64,000 bases of DNA from Megamonas hypermegale (GTDB lineage: Bacteria; Bacillota; Negativicutes; Selenomonadales; Selenomonadaceae), in the NCBI RefSeq assembly GCF_900187035.1, contig NZ_LT906446.1:434001-498000 (forward strand). Reading direction: 5' to 3'. Within the stretch, counting starts at the first letter, position 1, and each line of letters opens with the position of its first letter. Both the position numbers and the translations under genes were made by a program. Of the stretch, positions 1-54,063 are shown one piece after another. The notes beneath the pieces are model-generated. The model was not told the origin of the DNA. It saw only the letters and a list, made by a program, of their open reading frames with translations, and ran no database searches.

Positions 1-268
1 TAAGTATTTCTAACTGTTCATATAATGGAACGGCTAAGCACATTGTAGCCGGTGTCAATAAATAACCTAAATATTTTGCGCCATTATTGTATTCTTCATA
101 ATCGATATCAAAGACAAGTAACACGGCAATGATTAAAACTATGGAAATGAGCAATGGATTAAATATTGCTAATTTTAATTTTGCCTTTATGCGTAAACCA
201 ATTTCATAAGCAACTAAACTTAAAATTAATCCAAACAGTGCAGAATTGAATATTAAATCCTGTAACAT
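1..268 (-). CDS. lrgB: LrgB-family membrane protein (N-terminal part, runs off the window)
   Basis: The reverse strand reads an open frame from an ATG at 268 to the window edge, 89 residues without a stop. It begins MLQDLIFNSALFGLILSL and contains YNNGAKYLGYLLTPAT followed by CLAVPLYEQ, the conserved LrgB/CidB/YohK signature. Several hydrophobic segments fit an inner-membrane protein. LrgB works with LrgA; the pair is described as a holin/antiholin-like control of murein hydrolases, and in Bacillus as a pyruvate facilitator. Its ATG shares one base with the lrgA stop (TAATG), so the two are translationally coupled. Only the N-terminal third or so is present. Confidence 0.88.
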   Translation of the reverse strand, partial: MLQDLIFNSALFGLILSLVAYEIGLRIKAKLKLAIFNPLLISIVLIIAVLLVFDIDYEEYNNGAKYLGYLLTPATMCLAVPLYEQLEIL

Positions 269-630
269 TATTGAACCTCTTTTCTTCTACTGAAATTGAT
301 AACGAATTGAGTGATATGTCCTGAAATAACCATAACGATAACGGTAGACAAGCTGACAACGAGTGTGAGCGGAATAAGCAATGAACGAATTACATCCCAT
401 GTATTTAAAAGCCCAACAGCGGCTGGAATAAACATGATAGGCATTGTTTCTAATAAAAATTTGCTAGCGTGTTTTACAGAAATGATAGGAATTATTTTTA
501 ATTTTAATAAAGTGAGCATCAATATAAGTCCATAAATACTAGCAGGGATAGGTAACGGAATAAGCTCCTTAACTGTTTCTACGATAAAAGTCAATGTCAA
601 AATAATACCAAATTGTTCAAGCAATCTCAT
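268..630 (-). CDS. lrgA: LrgA/CidA-family holin-like membrane protein
   Basis: A protein of 120 residues, the usual size for LrgA/CidA, with about four hydrophobic segments, the motif PLPIPASIYGLILML and, later, LLETMPIMFIPAAVGLL, both typical of the family. It is an inner-membrane partner of LrgB. Proposed family roles are control of autolysis or transport of pyruvate or related small acids; the sequence does not decide between them. The start codon directly abuts the stop of the upstream GntR regulator and its stop overlaps the lrgB start, giving a three-gene operon gntR-lrgA-lrgB read leftward. Confidence 0.9.
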   Translation of the reverse strand: MRLLEQFGIILTLTFIVETVKELIPLPIPASIYGLILMLTLLKLKIIPIISVKHASKFLLETMPIMFIPAAVGLLNTWDVIRSLLIPLTLVVSLSTVIVMVISGHITQFVINFSRRKEVQ

Positions 631-1308
631 TTAAAGAACCTCTTTCCATCTACAAATTTCTTTGTCAACTAAATCATAGTGTTCATTTACAGCGGTATAG
701 CCTGCAAGTTCATCACGATTAACAATACTTTCAATGATTTGTTTATGTGAATTGACAATTCTTTTCAGTGTTTCTTGATTAGAAAGTTTAAATAAATTAT
801 CAATTAAATCTTCGCAAATCACAGAAAGTGCATTCATTATACTAATCATAAGTTTATTGTTAGAAATTCTAAGAATGATATTATGAAATAATTTATCGTA
901 ATGACCTTGACGGTGTTTTTGATGCATTTTTTCAACAACTTTTTTTAACAGACGAATATCACGCGGTGTGCATTTATGAAAGATATTGCGAAAGCATTCT
1001 AGAGCAATGGCTCGTCTAATTTGATTTATTTCTAGGTAATTAGACTGTTCCAGCAGTAACATAAAATCAACCGTTGCTGAGATATTGCGACTGATTTTAT
1101 TAGATAGATAATTGCCAGAACCTTGACGGCTCTCAACAAGTCCCATACTGCTCATGATACGAATGGCATCACGAACTGTATTGCGACTCAGTGATAATGT
1201 TTCAGATAAATGACGTTCTGTAGGCAATTTATCACCAATATTTAATTCACCTTGAATAATGAGTGCTTTTATGTATTGCAGAACTGCAAAGTATTCTCTG
1301 TTTTCCAC
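631..1308 (-). CDS. GntR-family (FadR/FCD type) transcriptional regulator
   Basis: 225 residues. The N-terminal winged helix-turn-helix (about residues 8-70) carries GDKLPTERHLSETLSLSRNT and GLVESRQGSGNYL, typical of GntR proteins. The C-terminal part is helical and fits an FCD ligand domain. It is the first gene of the lrgAB operon and abuts lrgA. A FadR-type operator (TGGT-AGT-ACCA) lies just downstream of a good promoter ahead of the gene, so I infer it represses its own operon. The effector is unknown; FCD regulators next to lrgAB or pyruvate genes often sense short organic acids. Confidence 0.88.
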   Translation of the reverse strand: MENREYFAVLQYIKALIIQGELNIGDKLPTERHLSETLSLSRNTVRDAIRIMSSMGLVESRQGSGNYLSNKISRNISATVDFMLLLEQSNYLEINQIRRAIALECFRNIFHKCTPRDIRLLKKVVEKMHQKHRQGHYDKLFHNIILRISNNKLMISIMNALSVICEDLIDNLFKLSNQETLKRIVNSHKQIIESIVNRDELAGYTAVNEHYDLVDKEICRWKEVL

Positions 1309-1330
1309 TTAGACACCTTCTGATTTATAT

Positions 1331-1347
1331 AATTGGTAGTACCAATT
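1331..1347 (-). promoter_or_regulatory. Probable GntR operator of the gntR-lrgAB operon
   Basis: The sequence is AATTGGT-AGT-ACCAATT, two perfect 7-bp arms with a 3-bp centre. Its core TGGTnnnACCA fits the known FadR-subfamily operator TnGTnnnACnA. It lies immediately downstream of the -10 box, covering the expected transcription start, where bound protein would block initiation. Confidence 0.75.
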
Positions 1348-1375
1348 ATTATACATTTATTTATAACAAAGTCAA
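1348..1375 (-). promoter_or_regulatory. Sigma-A type promoter of gntR-lrgAB
   Basis: Read on the minus strand: TTGACT (complement of 1370-1375), 16-bp spacer, TATAAT (complement of 1348-1353). The operator at 1331-1347 follows directly. Confidence 0.72.
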
Positions 1376-1380
1376 GCAAT

Positions 1381-1416
1381 AAAACAAAAAAAGCAATAAG
1401 AAAATATCTTATTGCT
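1381..1416 (-). terminator. Rho-independent terminator of the Crp/Fnr gene
   Basis: A perfect 9-bp stem (1392-1400 with 1408-1416, 7-nt loop) lies just after the stop codon of the Crp-like gene. On the minus strand it is followed by a run of T. Confidence 0.85.
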
Positions 1417-1423
1417 CTATAAG

Positions 1424-2098
1424 CTAAAAATCAGCTTCTTTATTTAAGGTAAATTTATTTTTATTATAATCGATTAGTCCATCTTTATGCATGCGTGAAA
1501 GTTCTGCTGACATGGCACTTCTATCTACAGATAAAAAATCAGCTAGTTCTTGGCGGTTAAAAGGGATAGTGAAATTATGACTATTTTGTTTAATGGCTTC
1601 AGTGGATAAATAAGATAAAATTTTATCACGTGTAGTTTTTTGTGTTAAATGCTCAATTTTAGTCGTCAGCATGATATTTTTTTGTGCCATTAACTTCAAC
1701 ATATTTTTAATTATCTTTGTATGAAAATTGCAAGCAAATTGGCATGGTGAAGTTATTTTTTCGTAATTGATGAACATGATTTTTGATTTTTCAGCAGCTA
1801 CTACGCTAAAAATATTGTACTGTGTTTTAGCACAAGCAAATGCTTCGCCGAATAGTTCACCTGTTTTTAATGTAGTTAAGATACTGCGATTACCCCAATA
1901 GTCTTCTTTGATAATATTAATTCTGCCCTCTAAAACGATGCCTACATCTAATAGCGTGTGTGAAGCTTTAACGATGTATTCATTTTTATTGTAAGTTTTG
2001 ATATTAGCAAGTAAACAGCCTAACATCTTTTCAATATCTCTTTTATCTACATCTGCAAATAACGCTGATTTTTGTAATATATCCAAATAATTTTGCAT
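1424..2098 (-). CDS. Crp/Fnr-family transcriptional regulator
   Basis: 224 residues. The first 120 or so form a cyclic-nucleotide-binding-like beta-roll (GIVLEGRINIIKEDYWGNRS, LKTGELFGEAFACA). A long helix follows, then a Crp-type helix-turn-helix near residues 172-205 (FNRQELADFLSVDRSAMSAE). There is no N-terminal cysteine cluster of the Fnr iron-sulfur kind, so the signal is unlikely to be sensed through a 4Fe-4S cluster. A GAGGGA ribosome site precedes the ATG. The gene is a single transcription unit, divergent from the 83-residue gene at 2275 and closed by its own terminator. Targets are unknown. Confidence 0.87.
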   Translation of the reverse strand: MQNYLDILQKSALFADVDKRDIEKMLGCLLANIKTYNKNEYIVKASHTLLDVGIVLEGRINIIKEDYWGNRSILTTLKTGELFGEAFACAKTQYNIFSVVAAEKSKIMFINYEKITSPCQFACNFHTKIIKNMLKLMAQKNIMLTTKIEHLTQKTTRDKILSYLSTEAIKQNSHNFTIPFNRQELADFLSVDRSAMSAELSRMHKDGLIDYNKNKFTLNKEADF

Positions 2099-2274
2099 AA
2101 AAATCCCTCATCAATATAATTTTATTGTAAAGATAATATAATTATATTATAAACTATTTATTTGATAAAAAACCATTTAAGTATATTTTCTAAATCATTC
2201 TGTATGTTCAGTTGATAATACGTAGTTTATGCGTTAAAATAAATAATAAAGTAAATGGTAAAGGAGCGACTTAA

Positions 2275-2526
2275 ATGTTTGAAGGCGATTTTCATCAATT
2301 TAAAAATTTAATTGTAAAAGTAACTTGTTTTGATGGCAGAGAATATACAGGAGTAGCAACATCTTTTAGAGACCACGATGATACTTCTTTGCCGGGTTCT
2401 GATTGTATTTGTTTTTATGAAAGCAATACAAATCGTCGTGCTGATTTCTTCCGTGCAGAAATAAAAGACATCACAATTGTTTGTCCTACTAAACAGTTTG
2501 TGGAAAAAGTTGACGGCGCAGCTTAA
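2275..2526 (+). CDS. Small conserved hypothetical protein, Sm-like in appearance
   Basis: 83 residues preceded by a strong AAGGAG. The chain starts with a short helix (FEGDFHQFKNL) and then beta-rich stretches (LIVKVTCFDGREYTGVATSF, SDCICFYES, EIKDITIVCPT). That layout resembles a small Sm/LSm barrel, but I do not recognise the family firmly and give no function. It is cytoplasmic, with no signal peptide. It stands alone between the divergent Crp-like gene and a terminator at 2541. Confidence 0.75.
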   Translation: MFEGDFHQFKNLIVKVTCFDGREYTGVATSFRDHDDTSLPGSDCICFYESNTNRRADFFRAEIKDITIVCPTKQFVEKVDGAA

Positions 2527-2540
2527 TTTTTATAAATACT

Positions 2541-2578
2541 AAAACCTCCAATTAATTTTGTTAATTTGGAGGTTTTTT
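2541..2578 (+). terminator. Rho-independent terminator
   Basis: An 11-bp GC-containing stem (AAAACCTCCAA with TTGGAGGTTTT), extended by four more pairs past a bulge, is followed by a T run. It closes the 83-residue gene. Confidence 0.88.
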
Positions 2579-2599
2579 CATCTAACGAGGTAATTTATT

Positions 2600-3436
2600 A
2601 TGCAAAATTTAGGTTATTATAATGGTAAATATGATTTAATTGAAAATATGATGATACCAATGACTGACCGCGTGCATTGGTTTGGTGATGGCGTTTATGA
2701 TGCTACTTGTGCGAGAAATTATCAAATAATGGAACTTAAAGCACATATCGACAGATTTTTTAACAGTGCTAAAGCTTTAAATATAAATCTCGGTTTTGAT
2801 AAAGAGTATTTAGCTGATTTATTGCAAGAATTAGTGCATAAATTAGATGAAGGCGATTTATTCGTATATTGGCAAGTTACACGCGGTGGAAATGGATTTA
2901 GAAGCCATAGCTATGATAGCGAGGTAAAAGCAAATCTTTGGATTACGATAACACCAGAAAAAGTGACTAAAATAGATAAAAAATTTAAACTTACAATGAT
3001 GGAGGATAAACGCTATCAGTATTGCAATATAAAGACATTGAATTTAATTCCAAGTGTATTAGCTGCTCAATTTGCTAAAGAAAAAAATTGTGATGAAACT
3101 GTATTTCATCGTGGAAATATCGTAACGGAATGTGCTCATAGCAATATCCATATCTTAAAAGATGGAAAGTTAATCACTCATCCTGCTGATGAATATATTT
3201 TACCAGGGATTGCTCGTGCTAATTTAATAAAAGTATGCCATGCTTTAAATATTGAAGTGGAAGAAAGACCTTTCACGCTGGAAGAACTATTTGCAGCTGA
3301 TGAAATCATCGTCAGCAGTTCAGGTGATTTATGTAACAGTGCATATGAATTAGATGGTAAAGCTATCGGTGGCAAAGATGAAAAAACTCTTAGTAAAATT
3401 CAAAAATATATCGCTGATAAATGGCTTAAAGACTAA
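2600..3436 (+). CDS. Class IV PLP aminotransferase, D-amino-acid transaminase-like
   Basis: 278 residues, typical for fold-type IV transaminases. Signatures in order are RVHWFGDGVYDATCARN near the N-terminus, LFVYWQVTRGGNGFRSHS, the probable PLP lysine in CNIKTLNLIPSVLA, and VTECAHSNIHILKDGKL with ILPGIARANLI. These match D-alanine aminotransferase (Dat) more closely than BCAT or 4-amino-4-deoxychorismate lyase. Dat interconverts D-alanine and 2-oxoglutarate with pyruvate and D-glutamate and can feed peptidoglycan. Substrate choice is not certain from sequence. A GAGG ribosome site lies before the ATG; no operon partner follows. Confidence 0.82.
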   Translation: MQNLGYYNGKYDLIENMMIPMTDRVHWFGDGVYDATCARNYQIMELKAHIDRFFNSAKALNINLGFDKEYLADLLQELVHKLDEGDLFVYWQVTRGGNGFRSHSYDSEVKANLWITITPEKVTKIDKKFKLTMMEDKRYQYCNIKTLNLIPSVLAAQFAKEKNCDETVFHRGNIVTECAHSNIHILKDGKLITHPADEYILPGIARANLIKVCHALNIEVEERPFTLEELFAADEIIVSSSGDLCNSAYELDGKAIGGKDEKTLSKIQKYIADKWLKD

Positions 3437-3487
3437 AAATAATAATTAATTTAAAAATTCAGAGCAAAAATTTTAATATTCGATATA

Positions 3488-3516
3488 TTGACATTGAGAA
3501 TTATTATCAGTATAAT
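3488..3516 (+). promoter_or_regulatory. Strong promoter with a Fur box in its spacer
   Basis: TTGACA at 3488-3493 and TATAAT at 3511-3516, both perfect consensus, are separated by exactly 17 bp. The spacer holds TGAGAAT-T-ATTATCA (3495-3509), one mismatch from the 7-1-7 Fur box TGATAATnATTATCA. I infer Fur repression of a transcript starting near 3523. Confidence 0.82.
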
Positions 3517-3522
3517 AGACTC

Positions 3523-3634
3523 GTTAATTTCATTAGAGAGTCTTGGAACTCCATAGAATATGTTATTTAATAAATTATATCTATTATAAATATATTTAGG
3601 TATAGATTTTAATAGCATTTCTATGGAGTTTTTT
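3523..3634 (+). ncRNA. Candidate Fur-controlled small RNA or attenuated leader of exbB
   Basis: From the expected start of the Fur-box promoter there is no convincing reading frame. A short GACTC/GAGTC stem overlaps the predicted 5' end. A perfect 12-bp stem (3547-3558 with 3619-3630) then encloses a 60-nt AU-rich loop and runs straight into six T residues, the form of an intrinsic terminator. The product would be about 110 nt. It could be a free iron-responsive small RNA, or a leader whose read-through feeds exbB 50 nt further on. No known riboswitch class is recognisable. Boundaries are predicted, not measured. Confidence 0.45.
3547..3634 (+). terminator. Intrinsic terminator or attenuator ahead of exbB
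   Basis: AACTCCATAGAA pairs perfectly with TTCTATGGAGTT, which is followed by TTTT to complete a six-T tract. The large AT-rich loop is unusual but contains shorter inner pairings such as ATCTAT with ATAGAT. Confidence 0.6.
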
Positions 3635-3647
3635 GTTCTAAGATTAA

Positions 3648-3662
3648 TGATAATAATTATTA
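3648..3662 (+). promoter_or_regulatory. Second Fur box, directly upstream of exbB
   Basis: TGATAAT-A-ATTATTA matches the 7-1-7 Fur box at 13 of 14 defined positions. It ends 10 bp before the exbB ribosome site, so bound Fur would cover the exbB promoter or start region. No clear -35/-10 pair is visible here; a TATTAT at 3658-3663 overlaps the box. Confidence 0.72.
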
Positions 3663-3686
3663 TTTTATATAAAAGGAGTGTCTATA

Positions 3687-4307
3687 TTGGATTTTGTACT
3701 TAGTGCATTAGAAATATTTCATCATGGCGGTTGGGTAATGTATCCGTTACTAGCTTGTTCTATCATAGTCGTGGCTATTGGCGTAGAGCGTTTTATGTAT
3801 TATCGCCGCACTTGCACTGCAAATATGACAGTATCGCAAAAAGTCTTAGCACTAGCTAAAGAAAAAAAATGGCAAGATATAGAGAATTTCTGCTCAACTC
3901 GCCGTTGTTTTATCAGTGATGTGTTGATGAATGGCTTAAGATATCGCAGCTGTCCAATATCCATGAAGGAAAGTTTTGAAGAGATTATCTCTGTGCGAGC
4001 TAATGGATTAAAGCGCAATTTAAATTATTTGGATACGATTGTTACCATGGCACCGTTACTCGGTCTTTTAGGCACAGTTATCGGCATGATTGGTTCATTT
4101 AAAGTATTAGATGTTTCAGGCGATAATCCAGCACTTATAACTGGAGGTGTAGGTGAAGCACTAATTGCTACGGCAACAGGCTTATGTGTAGCAGTATTAG
4201 CTTTAGTTGTGCACAGCTATTTTAGTAACCGTTTAGATGGGATTTTAACTGATGTGGAAAATGTTTGTACGCTTTTAATCAATAAATCAAGAGGTAAAGA
4301 TGAATGA
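3687..4307 (+). CDS. exbB: ExbB/TolQ-type proton channel protein
   Basis: About 206 residues from a TTG start at 3687, chosen because AAAAGGAG (3671-3678) lies 8 nt before it; an in-frame GTG at 3678 overlaps the ribosome site and is unlikely. Three membrane segments: WVMYPLLACSIIVVAIGVERF near the N-terminus, then TIVTMAPLLGLLGTVIGMIGSF and ALIATATGLCVAVLALVVHSYF, with the family motif LGLLGTVIGM. ExbB with ExbD uses the proton gradient to energise TonB and so drive outer-membrane import. It overlaps exbD by 4 bases (ATGA). AT-rich like the core genome. Confidence 0.93.
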   Translation: MDFVLSALEIFHHGGWVMYPLLACSIIVVAIGVERFMYYRRTCTANMTVSQKVLALAKEKKWQDIENFCSTRRCFISDVLMNGLRYRSCPISMKESFEEIISVRANGLKRNLNYLDTIVTMAPLLGLLGTVIGMIGSFKVLDVSGDNPALITGGVGEALIATATGLCVAVLALVVHSYFSNRLDGILTDVENVCTLLINKSRGKDE

Positions 4308-4708
4308 ATATAAGAAGTAATCGCGTGGCTCGCCAACCGCGTTTAATGATAATTCCCATGATAGATATCATTTTCTTCTTAATGGTATTTTTCTTATTCA
4401 GTACATTGCAAATGGTATATCAAAAATCCATGCCTGTAAATTTACCCGTAGCATCACAAAATCAACAAGAAGTGCCTAAACCTATAGCGATAACTATAAC
4501 AACAGATGGAACGATTAGCATTGGCGATACAGTAGTGGAAATCGAAGAAGTGCAATCTCGCGTAGAACAATTAGCCGATAAATCAGAAACGCCAGTCATT
4601 TTACGAGCTGATGAAAATGTAGAGCATGGCAAAGTCATTGCGGTTATGGATGAAGTAAAAAAAGCTGGTGTCACTAAATTGGCAATTGCTACAGAAGAAA
4701 AGAAATAA
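4304..4708 (+). CDS. exbD: ExbD/TolR biopolymer transport protein
   Basis: 134 residues: a short cytoplasmic start (RVARQPRLMIIPMIDIIFFL), one membrane helix with the conserved proton-carrying aspartate in PMIDIIFFL, and a periplasmic domain ending VKKAGVTKLAIATEEKK. Length and layout are standard. It forms the stator complex with ExbB and TonB. The start overlaps exbB and tonB follows after 12 bases, so exbB-exbD-tonB is one operon under the Fur boxes at 3.5-3.66 kb. Confidence 0.93.
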   Translation: MNIRSNRVARQPRLMIIPMIDIIFFLMVFFLFSTLQMVYQKSMPVNLPVASQNQQEVPKPIAITITTDGTISIGDTVVEIEEVQSRVEQLADKSETPVILRADENVEHGKVIAVMDEVKKAGVTKLAIATEEKK

Positions 4709-4720
4709 GGATTTTTAGTG

Positions 4721-5530
4721 ATGAAGAGAAAGCATATTTGGAAAAAAGCATTTTCACTATCGTTTGCTTTTCATATCGTCGTTATAGTAACCGTAGGGAG
4801 CATGGTGGCGGGATTTCATCAGGAAATTCAGCGGCCGGAGGAACAACTCATTACCGTAAACCTTGCCGATACGCCGGAAGAAATCGCCAAAGCGCAGGAA
4901 AGTGCTTCGCCGCTCAGTTCGTTAAAGGAAATGCTTCAGCCTCAGTCTGGTTCGGAAAACAATACGGTAAAAGAAAATACGGCAAAGCCGCAAAAAGATA
5001 TTTCGCCGGAAAGTGCGGACGATAAAGCACCTTCAAATCAAAACAGTGAACCGATAAACAGTTCCGGTCAATTATCATCACCGGACGGCATTTTGCCAAA
5101 CAGCGGCGGCAGCGGTACGGGAGATGTTTTATCGGAAAACGGCGGAGACGGCGAAGCAGGTGAAAATGCGGGAGAAGGTACGGGCGGCAGTGAAGGTTAT
5201 AGTGAAGGCGGCAGCACGGACGGCGGCGAAGGCACGGGCAGCGGCAGTGCGACAGAGGACAGATATTCCGTTGCCAGCAGGTTTGCTCAGGCGGTGGAGT
5301 CCAATAAATCGTATCCGTATGCGGCGGTGCGTCTCGGTCAGCAGGGCGTGGTTACAGTTAATGTAACACTTGATGCGGACGGAAATCTCGTGAGCGCCAG
5401 CGTCGTATCGAGTGCCGGCGGCAATCTCGATAAAGCCGCACTCAATGCTGTATATGCTTCCTGTCCGTTTCCGCACGGTTTGAACGACAGCATTAATATG
5501 GATGTACCTGTACATTTTTATTTAAATTGA
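4721..5530 (+). CDS. tonB: TonB energy transducer
   Basis: 269 residues from ATG 4721 (a GTG directly before it is possible but closer to the AAGG site). Order: N-terminal membrane helix (SLSFAFHIVVIVTVGSMVAG), a long low-complexity periplasmic linker rich in Ser, Pro, Asn, Glu and then Gly repeats (about residues 90-185), and a TonB C-terminal domain with GVVTVNVTLDADGNLVSASV and a final MDVPVHFYLN. It links ExbBD to the receptor. The first 70 bases are AT-rich like exbBD, while the rest is markedly GC-rich (38 of 60 bases G or C at 5101-5160), pointing to a recombination joint near the start of the gene. Confidence 0.92.
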   Translation: MKRKHIWKKAFSLSFAFHIVVIVTVGSMVAGFHQEIQRPEEQLITVNLADTPEEIAKAQESASPLSSLKEMLQPQSGSENNTVKENTAKPQKDISPESADDKAPSNQNSEPINSSGQLSSPDGILPNSGGSGTGDVLSENGGDGEAGENAGEGTGGSEGYSEGGSTDGGEGTGSGSATEDRYSVASRFAQAVESNKSYPYAAVRLGQQGVVTVNVTLDADGNLVSASVVSSAGGNLDKAALNAVYASCPFPHGLNDSINMDVPVHFYLN

Positions 5531-5599
5531 TGTTTATAAGATGTTTATAAACAGGAAATTCAACGTAATGGAAAATATAGAAGAAAAGAGATGTTGATA

Positions 5600-5839
5600 A
5601 TGCAGAATATTGTTTTTAAAACGGAAATGAACGGCACGGATTTTGCTGATGAGGATACGGAGCTTACCCGAAAAGAAATAAAAAAACTGCCGGAAGTCAG
5701 ATGTAAAGTGTGCAACCGGCTGCTTTTTCTGGGAAAGGTTCAGTATGTGGAAATTAAATGCCCAAAATGCAATAAAATCCAGAAAGTGGGCAGACGGATT
5801 AATGATATCTGCATAAAAGATGATTTTAGAGGTGAATAA
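5600..5839 (+). CDS. Com-like zinc-ribbon protein
   Basis: 79 residues from ATG 5600; an ATG at 5591 sits with no gap behind the AAAGAG ribosome site and is less likely. The C-terminal half has VRCKVCNRLLFLGKVQYVEI followed by KCPKCNKIQ, two CxxC knuckles spaced as in the phage Mu Com protein, a zinc-binding translational activator of mom mRNA. Free-standing Com-like proteins occur in many bacteria with unknown roles. It lies between tonB and the heme-binding protein gene, which begins on the very next base, so it is co-translated with an iron/heme import operon. GC-rich like its neighbours. Regulation of this operon's mRNA is only a guess. Confidence 0.72.
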   Translation: MQNIVFKTEMNGTDFADEDTELTRKEIKKLPEVRCKVCNRLLFLGKVQYVEIKCPKCNKIQKVGRRINDICIKDDFRGE

Positions 5840-6814
5840 ATGAACAGCACGCTGAGAAAATTGATTTTTATAGTAATATGCCTGCTTGCCGTCGGCGGAG
5901 CGGTGCTGGCATTCCGTCAGGACGAGGGCGCAAAAATGCAGGAAAACGAGATGAGAACGGTAACGGACAGTACCGACAGAAAAGTGGAAATTCCGGCTCA
6001 TCCGAAAAGAGTGGTACTGCTCAATGCTTCACATCTTGATTTATATTATTATGCCGGCGGGAAGGATACCATAGTCGGCAAGCCGACTTCCGAGGCTTTG
6101 GCGGATGAAGTGAAAAAAGGCACGGAAAATGTGTCGGAAGTGGGAGTAATTCATAATCCGAGCGTGGAAACGATATTGAATTTGCAGCCGGATTTGGTAA
6201 TCGGTATCAATGTGCCGTTTCATCAGCAGTTGATACCGACTTTGGAGAAGGCGAATATTCCCGTGCTGATAAAATCGCTCGATACGTATGAAGACGTTCT
6301 CGATACGCTGAAATTTTACGGTGAACTTACGGGAAAAGAAGAGACGGCACAGGCGAAGATAGACGAAGTGAAAGCGGGATACGAGCAGGCGATTGCTAAA
6401 ACCGAAGGGAAAAATCCGCCGAAATCGCTGATGATTTGGGGCACGCTGGACAGTTTCAGCATGGCGACGAGCAAATCATTTGCCGGTAATCTGATTTACA
6501 GACTGGGCGGCAATAACATTGCGGATAATATAAACTCGGCGGCAAAGGACAACAGCGGTTTCGTTCCGCTCAGCATGGAGTATATCGCTACGCAAAATCC
6601 GGAAGTTATCTTTATCGTAACGCACGGCGACCCTGGTGCGGTTAAAACGGAGCTGGATAATACGCTGGGCGAAAATCCGTTATGGCAGGATGTGGCGGCA
6701 GTGAAAAACGGCAGGGTTTATGTGCTCCCGTATCAGCTTTTTGCCGTAAATCCGGGAACGAGAATTGCCGAGGCTTTGAATATTCTGGCAGACGATATGT
6801 ATGAAAAAGAATAA
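5840..6814 (+). CDS. FecB-type iron/heme ABC transporter substrate-binding protein
   Basis: 324 residues. An N-terminal hydrophobic segment (LIFIVICLLAVGGAVLAF) precedes a class III binding-protein fold: VTDSTDRKVEIPAHPKRVVL, NPSVETILNLQPDLVIG, YGELTGKEETAQAKIDEV, NPEVIFIVTHGDPG and WQDVAAVKNGRVYVLPYQLF, the order seen in FecB/BtuF/HmuT proteins. There is no lipobox cysteine, so it may stay as a membrane-anchored periplasmic protein or be cleaved after VLA. It hands ligand to the permease encoded at 6844. Context (HutW, ChaN) suggests heme, but a siderophore is possible. Confidence 0.86.
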   Translation: MNSTLRKLIFIVICLLAVGGAVLAFRQDEGAKMQENEMRTVTDSTDRKVEIPAHPKRVVLLNASHLDLYYYAGGKDTIVGKPTSEALADEVKKGTENVSEVGVIHNPSVETILNLQPDLVIGINVPFHQQLIPTLEKANIPVLIKSLDTYEDVLDTLKFYGELTGKEETAQAKIDEVKAGYEQAIAKTEGKNPPKSLMIWGTLDSFSMATSKSFAGNLIYRLGGNNIADNINSAAKDNSGFVPLSMEYIATQNPEVIFIVTHGDPGAVKTELDNTLGENPLWQDVAAVKNGRVYVLPYQLFAVNPGTRIAEALNILADDMYEKE

Positions 6815-6843
6815 TTAATAATTTAATAATAAGGAGGCTTAAA

Positions 6844-7839
6844 ATGGGAGACCCTCGCTCCCGAAAACGCAGTATAGTAATGTTTTCGGGAATTGCAGTG
6901 CTTATTGTGAGTTTGTTTACAGCGATGGTGTGCGGAACGGCAAATACCGGTTTTGCCGATTTGTATAATGTTTTCGTAAATCCGCAGAATACGGAAAGTT
7001 ACCGCATTCTGTATCATATCCGCATACCGCGTGTTTTGACGTGCATGTTTGCCGGTATCAATCTGGCGATTGCAGGATGTATTTTGCAGGGCGTGCTGAA
7101 AAATCCGCTGGCGGACCCGGGCATAATCGGCGTATCGGCAGGGGCGGGACTTGCCGCAATGATTGTCATGATTATTTTTCCGCAGTATACGGCGATTGTG
7201 CCGATTGTAGCATTTATCGGGGCGATGGCGGCGACAATGATTTTATTCGTGCTGGCATGGGAAAACGGTATTCAGCCGCTCAAGCTTATTCTGGCAGGCG
7301 TTGCCGTATCGGCATTTTTTGCCGGAGGCATGACATGTCTTATGGTGTTTTTCTCCGATAAAATTCAGGGCACGGTGAACTGGATGGCGGGCGGATTTTC
7401 AGGTGCTTCGTGGAAGCACGTTACCATGATTTTACCGTATACGGTCATTGGGCTTTTGGGGACAACGGTCGGCTGCCGCTATCTGAACGCTCTGCAACTG
7501 GGAGATGATGTGGCAAAATCTCTGGGAACGCGCGTGGAAACGGCACGTTTTCTGCTGGTAACGCTGGCGGCTCTTTTGGCCGCTTCGGCGGTCAGTGTGG
7601 CGGGCATGCTCACATTCGTAGGGCTTATCGTGCCGCATATGATGCGTCTTGTAGTCGGTTCGGATTTTAATTATCTATTGCCGAGTTCGGCGGTTTTCGG
7701 CGGTATTCTGCTCATAATTGCCGATACGGTGGCGAGAACGGCATTTGAACCGATTGAAGTACCCGTCGGTGTATTCATGTCCTTTATCGGTGCGCCGTTT
7801 TTCCTTTATTTACTGAAAAGGGGAATGCAGAAAAGATGA
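6844..7839 (+). CDS. FecCD-family iron/heme ABC transporter permease
   Basis: 331 residues, strongly hydrophobic with about nine to ten membrane helices. Family motifs: RIPRVLTCMFAGINLAIAGC, LKNPLADPGIIGVSAGAGLA, LTFVGLIVPHMMRLVVGSDF and, near the end, FEPIEVPVGVFMSFIGAPFF. These are the hallmarks of FecCD/BtuC/HmuU permeases, which work as homodimers. A perfect AAGGAGG ribosome site precedes it. The stop overlaps the start of the ATPase gene (ATGA), so the two are coupled. GC-rich throughout. Confidence 0.92.
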   Translation: MGDPRSRKRSIVMFSGIAVLIVSLFTAMVCGTANTGFADLYNVFVNPQNTESYRILYHIRIPRVLTCMFAGINLAIAGCILQGVLKNPLADPGIIGVSAGAGLAAMIVMIIFPQYTAIVPIVAFIGAMAATMILFVLAWENGIQPLKLILAGVAVSAFFAGGMTCLMVFFSDKIQGTVNWMAGGFSGASWKHVTMILPYTVIGLLGTTVGCRYLNALQLGDDVAKSLGTRVETARFLLVTLAALLAASAVSVAGMLTFVGLIVPHMMRLVVGSDFNYLLPSSAVFGGILLIIADTVARTAFEPIEVPVGVFMSFIGAPFFLYLLKRGMQKR

Positions 7840-8636
7840 TATTACAGGCAGATAAATTAACACTTCAGTACGGTTCGCGCATTATAGCGGATGAGCTTGA
7901 TTTCAATGTGGATAAATCGGAAATCATTTCCATAATAGGTCCGAACGGTTCGGGTAAATCGACTTTTTTGAAATCATTAGGCAGATTACTAAAGCCAACG
8001 CGCGGTACTGTTTTATTAGAAGGCAAAGATATCCAAACGATGAATTCAAATGAGATAGCTCGCAAGATGTCTATATTGCCACAATCTTCCATAGCACCGC
8101 CAGACATGACTGTATACGATTTAGTCTGTTATGGCAGAATGCCCCATCAGGGAATATTTGCTACACCGAGCGATGAAGATAAAACGAAGATAGAAGAAGC
8201 GCTATCTGAAACTAATACTTCTGATATGCGCTACCGTAGACTCGATACATTATCTGGCGGAGAACGCCAACGCGCTTGGCTAGCTATGGCGATTGCGCAA
8301 AATCCAGAAATTTTATTATTAGATGAACCTACAACTTATTTAGATATAAAACATCAACTTGATTTGATGAATTTAGTTTATAAATTGCACCGAACGAAAA
8401 AAATCACTGTGATTATGGTCTTGCACGATTTAAACCATGCTGCGCGTTTCAGTAATCGTCTTGTAGCGGTGAAAAAAGGCAGGATTTTTGCTGATGGCAA
8501 TGTAGCAGAGGTATTTACGGAAAAAATTCTGTGCGATTTATACGATGTAAAGACGAGCGTGATGACTTTAAGACAAGGCGGCAAAGACTATCCGGTCTGC
8601 TTCCCGTATGACATAAGACAGGGAGAGAAGCAATAA
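7836..8636 (+). CDS. FecE-type iron/heme ABC transporter ATPase
   Basis: 266 residues with Walker A GPNGSGKST near residue 36, signature LSGGERQRAWLAMA, Walker B EILLLDEPTTYLD and H-loop VMVLHDLNHAARFS, typical of FecE/BtuD. It energises the FecCD permease encoded just before it. The gene is visibly mosaic: about the first 140 bases are GC-rich like the permease, the middle is AT-rich (15 of 60 bases G or C at 8341-8400), and the last 80 or so bases are GC-rich again. The reading frame is intact across both joints. Confidence 0.92.
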   Translation: MILQADKLTLQYGSRIIADELDFNVDKSEIISIIGPNGSGKSTFLKSLGRLLKPTRGTVLLEGKDIQTMNSNEIARKMSILPQSSIAPPDMTVYDLVCYGRMPHQGIFATPSDEDKTKIEEALSETNTSDMRYRRLDTLSGGERQRAWLAMAIAQNPEILLLDEPTTYLDIKHQLDLMNLVYKLHRTKKITVIMVLHDLNHAARFSNRLVAVKKGRIFADGNVAEVFTEKILCDLYDVKTSVMTLRQGGKDYPVCFPYDIRQGEKQ

Positions 8637-9376
8637 TGCAGATTTTGAGCCTGAATGAAGTCAGTAAAAAAATTCAGCAGAAGGATATTTTGAAGAATAT
8701 CTCTTTTGCTGTGAACGAAGGTGAGATTTTAGGTCTTTTAGGGCCGAACGGCGCCGGAAAAACAACGCTCATGCAGATAATTTCCGGTCTTATGCTGCCA
8801 TCTTCCGGCAAAGTTCGGATTTTGGGCACGGATGCGGTGCAGTATCGGCAGAAAGTAAAAAACTTAATCGGTTTTGTCATGCAGGACAATAATATGGAAC
8901 GGGAATTCACCGTGAAAGAGGCGTTATTATCATATGCCAAGCTGTATAAAGTAAAAGAGGCAAAATTCGCTGTGGAAAAAATGATTGAGCGATTTGGTAT
9001 GCGAAAGTGGCAAAATCGCCGCATTGACAGATTATCCGGCGGTATGGCGCGTAAAGCAATGATTGCACGCGCGCTGCTTGCTGAACCGAAACTGCTTTTA
9101 CTGGATGAACCGAGTGTAGGGCTTGACCCGGATGTGCGTCTGGATATCTGGCGGGAAATAGAAAAATTGCGCTGTCAGGGAATAGGTATAATAATCACGA
9201 CACATTACATGGAAGAAGCAGAAAGACTTTGCGACCGGATAGCCATATTAAAAGAGGGAAAACTCATGGCGGTGGATACTGCCGTGAATTTAAAGCATAT
9301 TATGGCAAAAGACAATAGTGAGGATTTAACTTTGGAAAAAGTTTTTCTGCGCTTTATCGGCAGGGAGGCATTTTGA
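8636..9376 (+). CDS. ABC-2 type exporter ATPase
   Basis: 246 residues: Walker A GPNGAGKTT near residue 35, signature RLSGGMARKAMIARALLAEP (GGM rather than GGQ), Walker B LLLLDEPSVGLD and H-loop ITTHYMEEAERLCDR. The layout matches CcmA/DrrA-like ATPases that pair with ABC-2 membrane proteins. It shares one base with the stop of the Fec-type ATPase gene before it and overlaps the permease gene after it, so it belongs to the same operon. The substrate is not apparent; context allows export of a heme breakdown product or protection from heme, which is a hypothesis only. GC-rich. Confidence 0.87.
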   Translation: MQILSLNEVSKKIQQKDILKNISFAVNEGEILGLLGPNGAGKTTLMQIISGLMLPSSGKVRILGTDAVQYRQKVKNLIGFVMQDNNMEREFTVKEALLSYAKLYKVKEAKFAVEKMIERFGMRKWQNRRIDRLSGGMARKAMIARALLAEPKLLLLDEPSVGLDPDVRLDIWREIEKLRCQGIGIIITTHYMEEAERLCDRIAILKEGKLMAVDTAVNLKHIMAKDNSEDLTLEKVFLRFIGREAF

Positions 9377-10110
9377 TGGACTGGCTGGCTGTATACAGCA
9401 GGGAACTTCTGCTGTTGCAAAAGAAAATGGGAAAGCTCGGCTATATTTTTTCAACAGTCATGTTTCCGCTCATATATTTATTTGCCTTCGGGCTGGGTAT
9501 CGGCTCGGTAATGCAGATTGACGGCGGTTATCTGCCTTTTCTGGCGAAAGGAATGCTTTCGATTACGGTAATGATGAATGCTTTTCAGCAAACGGCTCTG
9601 TCCGTCAGTGTCGGCAGATTTTATTTTAAAACGTTTCAAACTTTGCTGTTGAGCCCTGTTTCGGCAGTACAGATAATAATTGGCATTGTGCTTGCCGGAG
9701 TAACGCGCGGTTTTATTGCCGGAGGCATAATTTATATGATTGCCATGCTGTTTTTTGACGTACCAATGCTGAGCTTGGCGGGAATAATCGGCATACTGCT
9801 TTCTGCCGTTTGCTTCGGCCTGCTCGGTATAGCTATCGGTTTATGGATAAAAAATCCCGATGCACTGTCTTCCGTAATGAATTTCATCATAATGCCAATG
9901 ACTTTTTTCTGCGGAACATTTTTTCCGCTTAATAACTTGCCGCCGTTGTTACAAACGATAGTAAGTGTACTGCCGCTTACATTGGCGAATAATCTGCTTA
10001 GAAGCGAAAGTTTCAGCACAGATATTTTAATTGATATAGTGATATTGACCATTATCACGGCAACTTTATTTATTTGGGGAACATATAAGTTAAAAAATTA
10101 CCATGAGTAA
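9376..10110 (+). CDS. ABC-2 type transporter permease
   Basis: 244 residues from ATG 9376, which overlaps the ATPase stop by one base and sits 8 nt after AGGGAGG; an in-frame TTG at 9373 is less well placed. About six membrane helices with ABC-2 features: LGYIFSTVMFPLIYLFAFGL at the N-terminus, then FKTFQTLLLSPVSAVQIIIG, and MNFIIMPMTFFCGTFFPLNN toward the end. It is the membrane half of the exporter with the preceding ATPase, and the last gene before a 570-bp non-coding stretch. GC-rich. Confidence 0.87.
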   Translation: MDWLAVYSRELLLLQKKMGKLGYIFSTVMFPLIYLFAFGLGIGSVMQIDGGYLPFLAKGMLSITVMMNAFQQTALSVSVGRFYFKTFQTLLLSPVSAVQIIIGIVLAGVTRGFIAGGIIYMIAMLFFDVPMLSLAGIIGILLSAVCFGLLGIAIGLWIKNPDALSSVMNFIIMPMTFFCGTFFPLNNLPPLLQTIVSVLPLTLANNLLRSESFSTDILIDIVILTIITATLFIWGTYKLKNYHE

Positions 10111-10681
10111 GATATATGTTCATTTTTCTTTTGAAAGGTCAAAAGAAAAATGAACCAAAAATCACCTAAAGGTATAACATGCTCTAATTACTAAAGTAAT
10201 AAGAGCATGTAAAAAAAAACCTTTTTAACGTTTTGCTATCGCTGCACTGGGCAAGCCTTCGCGGTCTTTCTCTAAAAATAGGCGGAACAACAGTTCGAAA
10301 CGTTTGGAATTTGGCTCGTGTCTTCTAATTCCAGATGAAAACCAATTTGAGCTGTTGATACTTTAATTCGCTAATCATGCTGAATTTTTGTCTGCGTTGG
10401 AGATTTTCACGGTAGCTTTAGCTATTAAGAAAATAGTTTTTTAGTTCTGTTTTTAGTTCAAATGTTTGAGCGTAAGCGAGTTTTTGAACGTTAGAAATAA
10501 AAAACTATTTTCTTAAAGTGAAAATCTCTTAGCAGTGCACGAATTAAGGCATTTCTTTTTGGGTACTTTTTCTTTGGGCAACAAAGAAAAAGTACCTGGT
10601 GCAATTATATTGCACCAAACCAATAATGAAATATTGCGTTATAATATAAATAAGAAATATATCTTAAAAAGGAGATAACAT
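10111..10681. other. Gene-free stretch with a heavily folded, hairpin-bounded element
   Basis: No plausible gene. It opens with a perfect 17-bp stem (10118-10134 with 10139-10155) and a 15-of-16-bp stem (10177-10192 with 10195-10210). It ends with a perfect 15-bp stem (10562-10576 with 10582-10596) and an 8-bp stem (10597-10604 with 10610-10617). The first and last long stems share the core TTTTTCTTT/AAAGAAAAA. Between them are long-range pairings: 10361-10370 with 10540-10549 (one G-U), 10400-10410 with 10518-10528 (perfect), and AAGAAAATAG with CTATTTTCTT inside that. A nested fold of this kind suggests a structured RNA or a non-autonomous repeat. The last 50 bases probably hold the promoter of the flavodoxin gene (TTATAATATAA near 10640). 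Confidence 0.6.
10118..10596. repeat. Possible mobile or repeated element bounded by similar hairpins
   Basis: Limits are set by the two related terminal hairpins. No target-site duplication is evident and no transposase is present. Copy number in the genome cannot be judged from one window, so calling it a repeat is inference. Confidence 0.35.
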
Positions 10682-11230
10682 ATGAAATCTTTAGTTGTTT
10701 ATTCCAGCTTGACCGGCAATACGAAAATGGTGGGAGAGGCTATTGCGGAGGTTTTAGCGCCGGAGTGTGATATTTTCCCCGTGGAGGATAATCCCGATTA
10801 TAGCGATTATGATTTAGTTGTTGTCGGTTACTGGGTGGATAAAGGTACGGCTGACAAAAAAGCCTCTGCATATTTGAAGTCGATTAAAAACAGCAAGGTT
10901 GCCGTTTTTGCCACGCTAGGTGCGGAACCGGAAACGGAACATGCGCAAAAAAGTCTGCAAAACGGTATAGATATGCTGGATAGTTCCAATGAGCTTATGG
11001 GCAAATTCATCTGTCAAGGCAAAATTGACCCGAAGCTGTTGGAAGTCATGCGCAAAATGTTCGGCACGAAGGTATCAAAAGAAAATTTTCATGCCGTAGA
11101 TGAAAAACGTCTGGAACGCCACCGCAGAGCCAGCACTCATCCCGATGCACAGGATTTAGCCAATGCGAAAGCCGTATTTGCACAGATTAAGGCTGCAATG
11201 GAATTAAATAAAAATGGGAGAAATGAATGA
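10682..11230 (+). CDS. Flavodoxin-family protein next to the heme-opening enzyme gene
   Basis: 182 residues. The N-terminus KSLVVYSSLTGNTKMVGEAI has the flavodoxin phosphate loop (SSLTGNTK, residues 8-15), and YDLVVVGYWVDKGTADKK fits the first FMN-contacting loop. The C-terminal part (LERHRRASTHPDAQDLANAK) resembles the flavodoxin-like proteins found beside anaerobic heme or bilin metabolism genes. It would carry electrons as FMN, in the cytoplasm. The stop overlaps the start of the radical SAM gene by 4 bases, so it is the natural electron donor for that enzyme. RBS AAGGAG. GC-rich. Confidence 0.83.
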   Translation: MKSLVVYSSLTGNTKMVGEAIAEVLAPECDIFPVEDNPDYSDYDLVVVGYWVDKGTADKKASAYLKSIKNSKVAVFATLGAEPETEHAQKSLQNGIDMLDSSNELMGKFICQGKIDPKLLEVMRKMFGTKVSKENFHAVDEKRLERHRRASTHPDAQDLANAKAVFAQIKAAMELNKNGRNE

Positions 11231-12660
11231 GCAAAACAGTACAGGATATTTTAAATGAACTGCCGCCGGATAAATACAGGGAGCTTTTGGGCGTAAAATC
11301 CGCTAATCCCTTGAATGAAGCTTTTGAAAAAAGACGTCCCGACCACCCGAGTGCCGGCGGCAGTATGATACTTCCGCCGCTGCATCAGAAGACATGGCAA
11401 AACCAGATGAATGCACAAGGCTCGGTGCAGCATAAAAAGGCGGCGTATATTCATATTCCGTTTTGTGAAAAACTTTGCATATACTGCGGATTTTTTCAGA
11501 ACTTTTCCAATGAAGATAGAGAAACGATGTATGTAGACAGACTCATAAAACAGCTGGAAATGGCAAAAGAATACCGTTATGTACAGGAAAGTTTAATCCA
11601 CAGCGTATTTTTCGGCGGCGGAACGCCGAGCACTTTGTCGCCGTATAACGCGGATAGACTTTTAAAAGCCGTGAATGAATGCCTGCCGCTTGCCAATGAC
11701 TGTGAAATTACGATGGAAGCGCGCGTGCATGATTTAGTCGATGAAAAACTGCAAACATGGTTTGCCCGCGGTGTAAACCGTATTTCCGTCGGCGTGCAGT
11801 CGTTTGATACGCAAATCCGCCAATGCTTAGGCAGAGTCGACCCGAAAGAAGTCGTTATTGAGAATTTGCAAAGGGCGGCAAGCTATAATCAGGCCGTTAT
11901 TATCGTCGATTTAATCTATGGGCTGCCGTATCAGACGGTGGAAAAATTCGTGGATGATTTGAAAATTATTGATGATTTGCCGATTGACGGCATGGATTTA
12001 TACCAGCTCAATGTGTTTGAAAAGAGCCTGCTGAAAAAATCGCTTGATACGGGCAAACTGCCGCCGGTGGCAACGAGCGCAGAGCAGGCAGAATATTTAA
12101 AAACGGCTGCGGAATTTCTGGAAGAAGCGAATTACAAGCGGCTCAGCGTCTGCCACTGGGCAAAGTCCAACCGCGAGCGCAGTCTGTACAACACGCTTGC
12201 CAAAACGGATGCCGACGTAATCCCGTTCGGTTCCGGCGCAGGCGGTTTTGTCGGTGATATTTCCGTATACATGCAGCGCGATTTGAAAAAGTACATGGAC
12301 AGCATTGATAAAGGCAAAGTGCCGATAATGTTCATGCTCAGGGCGCCGGAGCTTGCCAGTCTGTACAAGGATATTCAGGACCAGACGGAAAGCTGCGGCG
12401 TAAATCTCACCAAATTGGCGAAAAAATACAATAAAGAGCTAATGCAGCTGGAAACGGTGCTCGATATCTGGACGGAGCACGGTTTATTCACGAAAAAAGG
12501 CCATATGTACAGGATGACCATTGCCGGGCAGTACTGGCAAAAGAACATTACGCAGAGTTTAATTGAAATAACAAAGAAATTTTTAAATGCGAAGACATCG
12601 ATTAATGAATGGCTGACCGAAAAAACCATGAATACATTTAAAAAGAAAATCGAAAATTAA
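11227..12660 (+). CDS. hutW: HutW/ChuW-type radical SAM enzyme for anaerobic heme degradation
   Basis: 477 residues. A HemN-like radical SAM core has CEKLCIYCGFF (Cys80, Cys84, Cys87: CX3CX2C, binding 4Fe-4S and SAM), FFGGGTPSTLSPYNADRLL and RGVNRISVGVQSFD. The N-terminal extension (FEKRRPDHPSAGGSMILPP) and C-terminal part separate it from HemN/HemW coproporphyrinogen oxidases and fit ChuW/HutW, which open heme without oxygen to release iron and form a linear tetrapyrrole. The overlapping flavodoxin gene and surrounding heme import genes support this. GC-rich (34 of 60 bases at 12181-12240). HemW-like function is the main alternative. Confidence 0.85.
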   Translation: MSKTVQDILNELPPDKYRELLGVKSANPLNEAFEKRRPDHPSAGGSMILPPLHQKTWQNQMNAQGSVQHKKAAYIHIPFCEKLCIYCGFFQNFSNEDRETMYVDRLIKQLEMAKEYRYVQESLIHSVFFGGGTPSTLSPYNADRLLKAVNECLPLANDCEITMEARVHDLVDEKLQTWFARGVNRISVGVQSFDTQIRQCLGRVDPKEVVIENLQRAASYNQAVIIVDLIYGLPYQTVEKFVDDLKIIDDLPIDGMDLYQLNVFEKSLLKKSLDTGKLPPVATSAEQAEYLKTAAEFLEEANYKRLSVCHWAKSNRERSLYNTLAKTDADVIPFGSGAGGFVGDISVYMQRDLKKYMDSIDKGKVPIMFMLRAPELASLYKDIQDQTESCGVNLTKLAKKYNKELMQLETVLDIWTEHGLFTKKGHMYRMTIAGQYWQKNITQSLIEITKKFLNAKTSINEWLTEKTMNTFKKKIEN

Positions 12661-12791: not shown

Positions 12792-12806
12792 TGAGAATGA
12801 CTATTA
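12792..12806 (+). promoter_or_regulatory. Weak Fur-box match ahead of the TonB-dependent receptor
   Basis: TGAGAAT-G-ACTATTA agrees with the 7-1-7 Fur box at 11 of 14 positions and lies 36 bp before the receptor start, with a possible TATTAT -10 inside it. Position and operon type support the call more than the match itself. Confidence 0.5.
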
Positions 12807-12827
12807 TTAAATATAAGGAGATTTATG

Positions 12828-53226: not shown

Positions 53227-54063
53227 ATGATTTTGACTGATAAAAATGTAGCACCATTCATAAAATGGGCTGGTGGAAAGAGACAATTATTGCCATATAT
53301 TCAAGAATTAATGCCTAAAACGTATGATAATTATTATGAGCCATTTATTGGCGGTGGTGCAGTCTTATTTCATTTAATGCCCCAAAAAGAAGTTATCATC
53401 AATGATATCAATAAAGCACTTATTAATGTATATAGACAAATAAAATATCATCCCAATGAATTAATGCAGTATTTGACAAAAATAGATGCGGATATACCAC
53501 TTGAACATAAAGCATATTATTATGAACAAAGAGAACAATTCAATGACAAAATGATGAAAGATGAATACGATTTAGAACTTGCCGCGCTATTTATCTACTT
53601 AAATAAACATTGTTTTAACGGATTGTATCGCGTAAATAGCAAAGGTTTATTCAATGTACCATTTAATAATAGTAATGTTAAATCATTTAATGCTGAAAAT
53701 ATCTTAGCTGTATCACATTTTTTACAGAAAGTCACCATATTAGAAGGCGATTTTGAACATGCTTGTCAAAATGCTAAAAAAGGTGATTTTATTTTTCTTG
53801 ATAGTCCTTATGCTCCATTAAATGATACTTCTTTTGAAGCCTATACTAAAGAAGGATTTGATATACCTAGCCATAAACGATTGGCTAAACTATTTGGAGA
53901 ACTTAGTAGCCGCGGTTGTTATTGTATGTTGACTAATCATAATACTGAATTTATAAATGACCTTTATCAAGATTATCATAAAAAAGTAATAACAGTACGC
54001 CGTTATATAAATTCTGATGCTAAAAACCGTAAAGGTGAAGAAATTATCATCACTAATTATTAA
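53227..54063 (+). CDS. Dam/DpnM-type adenine-N6 methyltransferase (GATC)
   Basis: 278 residues from ATG 53227, one base after the preceding stop. D12-class features: APFIKWAGGKRQLLPYIQEL, YYEPFIGGGAVLFHLMPQ (SAM site), the catalytic tetrapeptide as DSPYAPLND instead of DPPY, and YCMLTNHNTEFINDLY. Similarity in order and length to DpnM and Dam predicts methylation of the adenine in GATC, protecting host DNA. The restriction enzyme gene begins 19 bases after it. The serine in DSPY is a tolerated variant in this class as far as I recall. AT-rich. Confidence 0.9.
   Translation: MILTDKNVAPFIKWAGGKRQLLPYIQELMPKTYDNYYEPFIGGGAVLFHLMPQKEVIINDINKALINVYRQIKYHPNELMQYLTKIDADIPLEHKAYYYEQREQFNDKMMKDEYDLELAALFIYLNKHCFNGLYRVNSKGLFNVPFNNSNVKSFNAENILAVSHFLQKVTILEGDFEHACQNAKKGDFIFLDSPYAPLNDTSFEAYTKEGFDIPSHKRLAKLFGELSSRGCYCMLTNHNTEFINDLYQDYHKKVITVRRYINSDAKNRKGEEIIITNY

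Follow-up and report, generated by a model that had tools for sequence, protein, structure and literature searches.

Our analysis describes a candidate regulatory leader upstream of exbB in a 64-kb stretch of DNA (the window, which is the whole stretch analysed), in which a promoter with a Fur-like box is followed by an intrinsic terminator, and a motif resembling the RNA site of the phage protein Com overlaps the base of the terminator. We propose, with a probability of roughly two in three, that this is a two-stage heme and iron-uptake leader, in which Fur sets initiation and Com, a zinc-ribbon protein, sets read-through, probably by antitermination. As read from the sequence, plentiful iron would shut off initiation in the first stage through the Fur box in the promoter spacer. 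Without Com, the 3' half of the motif AGAGAGUCUUGGAACUCC would join the long terminator hairpin and polymerase would stop near position 3634 after making an RNA of about 110 nt. Binding of the Com zinc ribbon to a short hairpin, P1, would occupy the terminator base, shorten the stem and part it from the U-tract; polymerase would then read through into exbB-exbD-tonB-com and the heme genes, and Com would boost its own synthesis in a positive feedback. In relatives in which Com is fused to a substrate-binding protein (SBP) domain, heme or a different iron ligand may govern the binding.

The exbB leader and its gene cluster

The leader comprises the following features:

3488-3516, + strand: sigma-70 type promoter TTGACA-17-TATAAT, matching the consensus at 12 of 12 positions
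3495-3509, no strand: Fur-like box TGAGAATTATTATCA in the promoter spacer, one mismatch to TGATAATNATTATCA
3535-3552, + strand: Com-operator-like motif AGAGAGTCTTGGAACTCC, the sole match in 64 kb, with the layout of the SELEX consensus for Com sites
3538-3551, + strand: short hairpin P1, GAGU-CUUGGA-ACUC, proposed antiterminator and Com-binding hairpin, from pairing across elements
3547-3634, + strand: intrinsic terminator with 12-bp arms and a T-run, fold z -5.3, arms identical in the congener locus L003
3648-3662, no strand: second Fur-like box before exbB, one mismatch, role doubtful

A first-pass annotation of this DNA had pointed to the perfect promoter with a one-mismatch Fur box in its spacer, a perfect 12-bp stem running into six T, the absence of a gene from the interval and a second Fur box just before exbB, all of which are borne out. 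The promoter (TTGACA at 3488-3493, a spacer of 17 nt, TATAAT at 3511-3516) is the sole perfect TTGACA-17-TATAAT on either strand of positions 1-9000. Perfect promoters with a Fur-like box at the same place in the spacer recur in the one congener among the genomes analysed (genome G001, locus L003) and in a genome of another family (G052, locus L041). Boxes so rich in A and T arise by chance here, and at up to three mismatches the window holds 24 Fur-like sites vs 17 expected by chance; what speaks for the spacer box is its recurrence in relatives. The second box is weaker in the congener (13/19), and no + strand promoter was found after it. The window's genome, which is closed (2.23 Mb) and to judge by its genes probably belongs to Megamonas or a near neighbour within the Negativicutes, encodes two FUR-family proteins. 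A third one-mismatch box, overlooked in the first-pass annotation, lies at 53325-53339, and a weak box with three mismatches at 12792-12806, just 5' of the TonB receptor gene (12825), marks a possible second promoter of the heme cluster.

The terminator arms, AACTCCATAGAA (3547-3558) and TTCTATGGAGTT (3619-3630), and the six T at 3629-3634 give the leader the stable stem and U-tract of an intrinsic terminator; the loop of 60 nt is itself further folded, and a simple terminator scan misses the structure because its loop is long. The 115-nt leader transcript folds at -30.4 kcal/mol (z = -5.3), with 0 of 200 shuffles as low. There is no open reading frame (ORF) of at least 60 aa on either strand between 3437 and 3677, and an Rfam scan of the whole 64-kb window matched no family. 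Relatives of the leader were found by DNA search. The congener has the same layout 5' of exbB, with arms (AACUCCAUAGAA and UUCUAUGGAGUU) identical to those of the window, as compared by eye (MAFFT misplaced the 3' arm), and a loop of different sequence. In G052 a similar Fur-box promoter lies 5' of exbB, with a shorter terminator and AGAGGGCCUAUAGAGCUCC ahead of it.

The motif lies just 5' of the 5' terminator arm and overlaps it, while its own 5' half, AGAGAGUC, falls outside the terminator; the motif, the downstream com gene and the match to the Com consensus had all escaped the first-pass annotation. The pattern AGAGRGYC-n-GARCUCC has this one match in the window and none in 100 shuffles. 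P1 has a six-base loop, CUUGGA, and shares positions 3548-3551 with the 5' terminator arm; alone it reaches -1.5 to -2.5 kcal/mol, and the terminator about -25.

The leader precedes a cluster of heme and iron-uptake genes:

3687-4307, + strand: exbB (PF01618, 1.7e-28), TTG start after AAAAGGAG
4304-4708, + strand: exbD-like ORF adjoining exbB, assigned by position and sequence
4718-5530, + strand: tonB (PF03544, 6.6e-15; TIGR01352)
5591-5839, + strand: com-like gene for a four-Cys zinc ribbon (PF10122), the proposed RNA-binding leader regulator
5840-6814, + strand: SBP of heme/siderophore type (PF01497, 1e-38; best NCBIfam match IsdE, 1.9e-44, below cut-off)
6844-10110, + strand: ORFs for an ABC permease and ATPase, then a second ATPase and permease
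10682-12660, + strand: BilS-like flavodoxin and ChuW/HutW anaerobic heme-degradation radical SAM enzyme (TIGR04107, NF045594)
12825-14873, + strand: TonB-dependent receptor of heme type (best NCBIfam match TIGR01785, 2.9e-74, below cut-off)

The TTG-GATTT start of exbB is conserved in L003, and its ribosome site lies at 3671-3678. The second ATPase matches ABC families and the other three ABC genes are assigned by sequence only; in the 10682-12660 pair, TIGR04107 scores 480 bits over a cut-off of 400 and NF045594 scores 127 bits, below its cut-off of 155. The fourth gene of the cluster, com, encodes a stand-alone protein of 82 aa in which PF10122 is the sole Pfam domain (23.9 bits against a curated cut-off of 22.9), with the four-Cys ribbon RCxxCN(K/R)LL...EI(K/R)CPxC. 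The congener ORF falls just below the cut-off (21.3 bits). Over 31 aa, the window protein shares 42% identity with phage Mu Com, and a PDB sequence search for Com gave weak zinc-ribbon matches only. Across the cluster the GC content rises from about 31% to 45-49% near the tonB start (4718) and drops near 12.6 kb, and the tonB of the congener is AT-rich, unlike that of the window; the 4700-12600 stretch appears to be a recent replacement or acquisition within the heme cluster, and the leader and exbBD look native.

An element family in the Negativicutes

The search pattern was drawn from the leaders of the window, the congener, G052 and G249; in G249 the motif occurs twice, after a promoter and again before exbB, and a small zinc-ribbon gene separates the two copies. 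Among 380 genomes of the class, the pattern matched in 46, and the matches form two sets: in one, a terminator follows whose 5' arm starts inside the motif; the matches of the other are scattered and have no terminator. A strict-pattern scan of a sample of the rest of the phylum (338 genomes, nearly all outside the class) gave no match. A covariance model built on 45 terminator-coupled elements, with the congeners left out, gave 61 full-length matches at or above 30.6 bits in 21 of the 380 class genomes; matches below about 30 bits are mostly generic or partial, terminator-only. We therefore count about 60 copies of the motif-plus-terminator element in the Negativicutes, and the model also recovered, unaided, variants in G040, G222 and G231. 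A covariance search in relatives had been suggested in the first-pass annotation; with our model the window copy itself scored only 14.1 bits (E 0.005 in 108 kb), and its counterpart in the congener 17.8 bits. We read both low scores as the effect of the long loop and a U-A variant, and despite its score the window copy agrees with the element in its position and in its congener.

Pattern matches in Selenomonadaceae beyond the two congeners were set aside as chance-like, having no terminator where examined. The element is not a general feature of exbB, since most sampled exbB leaders of the class are without it. Leaders before exbB homologs in two other families (L044 and L048) resemble cobalamin riboswitches, a putative assignment. 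An ExbB search of genome contigs returned only one unrelated MAG.

The AGAGRGYC half of the motif is nearly invariant across families though it lies outside the terminator stem. P1 is formed by motif positions 4-16, 5-15, 6-14 and 7-13. In the 53 elements counted, all four are always standard pairs, a figure of 100% that is partly built in, since the count pattern allowed only purines or pyrimidines at the paired positions. Pair 7-13 is C-G in 50 elements and U-A in three (the window, the congener and G053 of another family); pair 4-16 is G-C in 51 and A-U in two (L138, a model match, and L108, a putative copy on the minus strand); pair 5-15 is A-U or G-U. The double-sided changes at two pairs (7-13 and 4-16) lend P1 modest covariation support from few events. 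The terminator stem covaries clearly, and none of 500 shuffles reached its score.

P1 and the terminator share the nucleotides C-U-C (columns 22-24 of alignment A2) and are therefore mutually exclusive. In most elements P1 is worth about -2 to -3 kcal/mol vs -8 to -25 kcal/mol for the terminator; the free energies strongly favour the terminator, so that termination should be the default and P1 would need a protein. Given this weakness of P1, Com would have to win kinetically.

A variant, GAGCTTCTTGAAAGCC, is followed by a hairpin resembling a terminator at L137:2644-2700 and L140:1472-1530, close to Com-like and GntR genes in two genomes without the standard element; it may be another Com site or chance.

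Com proteins and their proposed sites

The distribution of the element follows that of Com. PF10122 is found in 27 of the 380 class genomes; all 21 genomes with model matches encode Com, as do both congeners (the window's genome and G001), which carry the low-scoring long-loop versions, and the element is present in 23 of the 27 Com-bearing genomes vs none of the 353 others. A Fisher test on 21/27 vs 0/353 gives p of about 2e-29, ignoring phylogeny. Within each of six families (f1, f6, f7, f10, f23 and f26), some genomes have both Com and the element and others have neither. In the Com-only genomes (G043, G051, G228 and G284) Com stands in other settings, one of the four falling below the cut-off.

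Wherever it could be assigned among 46 unique elements, the next gene is com, com-SBP, tonB, SBP, TonB receptor or exbB. A Fur-like box (at least 13/19) lies within 200 nt of 30 of these 46, vs 8% of random stretches, and the elements without one are mostly internal to loci. The element loci carry ExbB/ExbD, TonB, SBP, ABC permease and ATPase, flavodoxin, the ChuW/HutW radical SAM enzyme and TonB receptor, the same gene set as the window cluster. In L111, L112, L118 and L125, com sits between two elements.

A Com ribbon followed by a substrate-binding domain is found in L108, L109, L111, L112, L114, L116-L120, L122, L138, L142 and L144, four of these fusions having been scanned with Pfam (PF10122 and PF01497) and the others identified by sequence. 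By alignment, Com occupies the place of the signal peptide of exported SBP relatives, and the fusion protein should therefore be cytoplasmic. Among NCBIfam families, the fused domain matches the heme protein IsdE best, below cut-off, and one histidine is invariant in the SBP-domain alignment. Such a fusion is likely to be a one-piece, ligand-sensing RNA regulator in those species, with heme or another iron compound as its possible ligand.

The bacterial consensus, AGAGRGCC-N2-4-GAGCUCC, was derived before the SELEX study of Com was read, and it agrees with the consensus selected there with a Mu-like phage Com, NGAGNNCC(N)2-3GAGNNCCNN; SELEX used that one phage protein and none from Negativicutes (PMC6483171). 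Phage Com binds CC(N)2-3GAG as a hairpin loop in which GA is critical and a C-G pair closes the loop (PMC6483171). The window motif, GAGAGUC-UUG-GAACUCC, keeps the layout and the hairpin, with two letters changed and pairing kept: UC and GAA replace CC and GAG, and the loop-closing pair is U-A, not C-G.

In viral contigs, 20 of the 80 occurrences of the exact 17-mer follow the start of a Com domain by 88-97 nt in the same orientation, and a 21st is at -232; the Com background in these contigs (43 of 1000) is biased, the loci having been chosen by motif. L201, L206, L226, L244 and other Mu-like contigs have the 17-mer inside the 3' end of the Com ORF, just before a Dam-like methylase (assigned by eye) whose ribosome site lies between complementary arms; these methylases are probably controlled by Com. 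At L223:3275-3330 and L277:2252-2305 a Com-like ORF is followed by the exact motif and then by an intrinsic terminator, a phage version of the terminator-coupled element.

From the matching sites and the shared distribution we infer that Com binds the leader RNA. The antiterminator-like geometry and the placing of com between two elements are the grounds on which we propose that Com gives read-through, not termination, and positive feedback, although anatomy alone does not fix the sign of the effect. A broader proposal, to which we give somewhat less than even odds, is that Com zinc ribbons are chromosomal antiterminators of heme uptake, and that in several lineages they are one-component sensors, a cytoplasmic IsdE-like domain, with Com in place of its signal peptide, sensing heme.

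Alternative explanations and known systems

The same co-occurrence and motif data would arise if Com bound the element and lowered expression, stabilizing termination or blocking the leader in a negative feedback, and autoregulated small RNA-binding proteins are often repressors. In the elements, however, the hairpin is formed with the base of the terminator stem, and bound Com should therefore make the terminator weaker, not stronger; moreover, Mu Com is an activator of translation that melts a structure (PMC6483171); we regard this reading as unlikely, although it is the alternative to which we give most weight. Slightly less probable still is that a simple Fur promoter is followed by a leaky terminator without regulation, which keeps expression low, the motif having some other role. 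Promoter, Fur-like box and terminator would suffice for such a fixed attenuation, but the near-invariance of AGAGRGYC outside the stem and the tracking of Com presence by motif presence argue against it.

The first-pass annotation had offered two readings, an iron-starvation small RNA like RyhB or a terminated leader with regulated read-through into exbBD-tonB. The terminated leader has held up: some 20 genomes show the same order of motif, terminator and transport gene, often directly downstream of a Fur-box promoter. A Fur-controlled, trans-acting RNA of about 110 nt appears very improbable. A terminated transcript of that size is predicted, and the succession of a Fur-like-box promoter and an intrinsic terminator is indeed shared with RyhB-type iron sRNAs, but the conserved part is a motif of 17-18 nt, resembling a protein site and fused to the terminator, and the would-be seed loop differs between congeners and between families. 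No conserved trans-acting seed was found, sequence outside motif and stem not being conserved between the congeners, and copies of the element stand in cis before uptake genes, repeated within loci before several of them. We consider least probable of all that Com opens a structure hiding the exbB start, as in phage Mu. This reading has the Mu precedent (PMC6483171) and the phage contigs with the 17-mer before a methylase start in its favour; in the bacterial elements, however, the 10 bases after the hairpin include 5-9 T, the downstream start codon stands at a very variable distance (25-160 nt in most), and the ribosome site lies outside the hairpin, as it does here.

Antitermination by Com would resemble established systems in its logic. 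In the bgl operon, bglG is placed between two antiterminator elements, and in several of the relatives studied here the regulator gene likewise lies between two elements. Protein-stabilized antiterminator hairpins shorten the terminator and part it from its U-tract, and in the RAT systems of BglG, LicT and SacY the protein-site hairpin overlaps the 5' arm of the terminator, as found here (PMC3369936). The present loci differ from these in having no PTS sugars, another RNA motif and an unrelated protein family; CAT and PRD domains were not found in the Com regulators, for which Pfam gives PF10122 in the window protein and PF10122 with PF01497 in the fusions. ANTAR proteins (AmiR, NasR, EutV) also stabilize a hairpin, which cuts the terminator short and separates it from the U-tract, with several such leaders per locus, and AmiR is governed by the amide-binding AmiC, which recalls the Com-SBP fusions (PMC3369936). 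ANTAR needs two hairpins with A1 and G4 in the loop, whereas the element here has one hairpin and a zinc-ribbon protein, and Pfam scans of the Com proteins found no ANTAR domain.

The closest likeness is to Com and the mom mRNA of phage Mu, with a four-Cys zinc ribbon of the same family (PF10122) encoded beside the regulated genes, and a bipartite GAGNNCC-N2-3-GAGNNCC site forming a hairpin with a loop of 5-6 nt (PMC6483171). Mu Com activates translation of a phage DNA-modification gene; here, in contrast, the site forms one unit with an intrinsic terminator and follows a Fur-type promoter at heme and iron-uptake loci of the chromosome, and the Com of relatives can carry a ligand-binding domain. 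The literature searched, with coverage that leaves out most subscription papers, holds no earlier account of chromosomal regulation by Com.

Our analysis suggests that bacteria have taken an RNA-binding protein from phages and use it as a second switch for heme uptake. To our knowledge, the Com family has until now been known from a single translation switch, that of phage Mu. If the proposed model is true, it would give the family a chromosomal role, and hairpin-type antitermination would gain a third protein family besides CAT and ANTAR. The fused forms of Com suggest an RNA switch that senses its ligand directly, and for some Negativicutes, gut anaerobes among them, the model would mean a two-level control of heme capture and of anaerobic heme breakdown.
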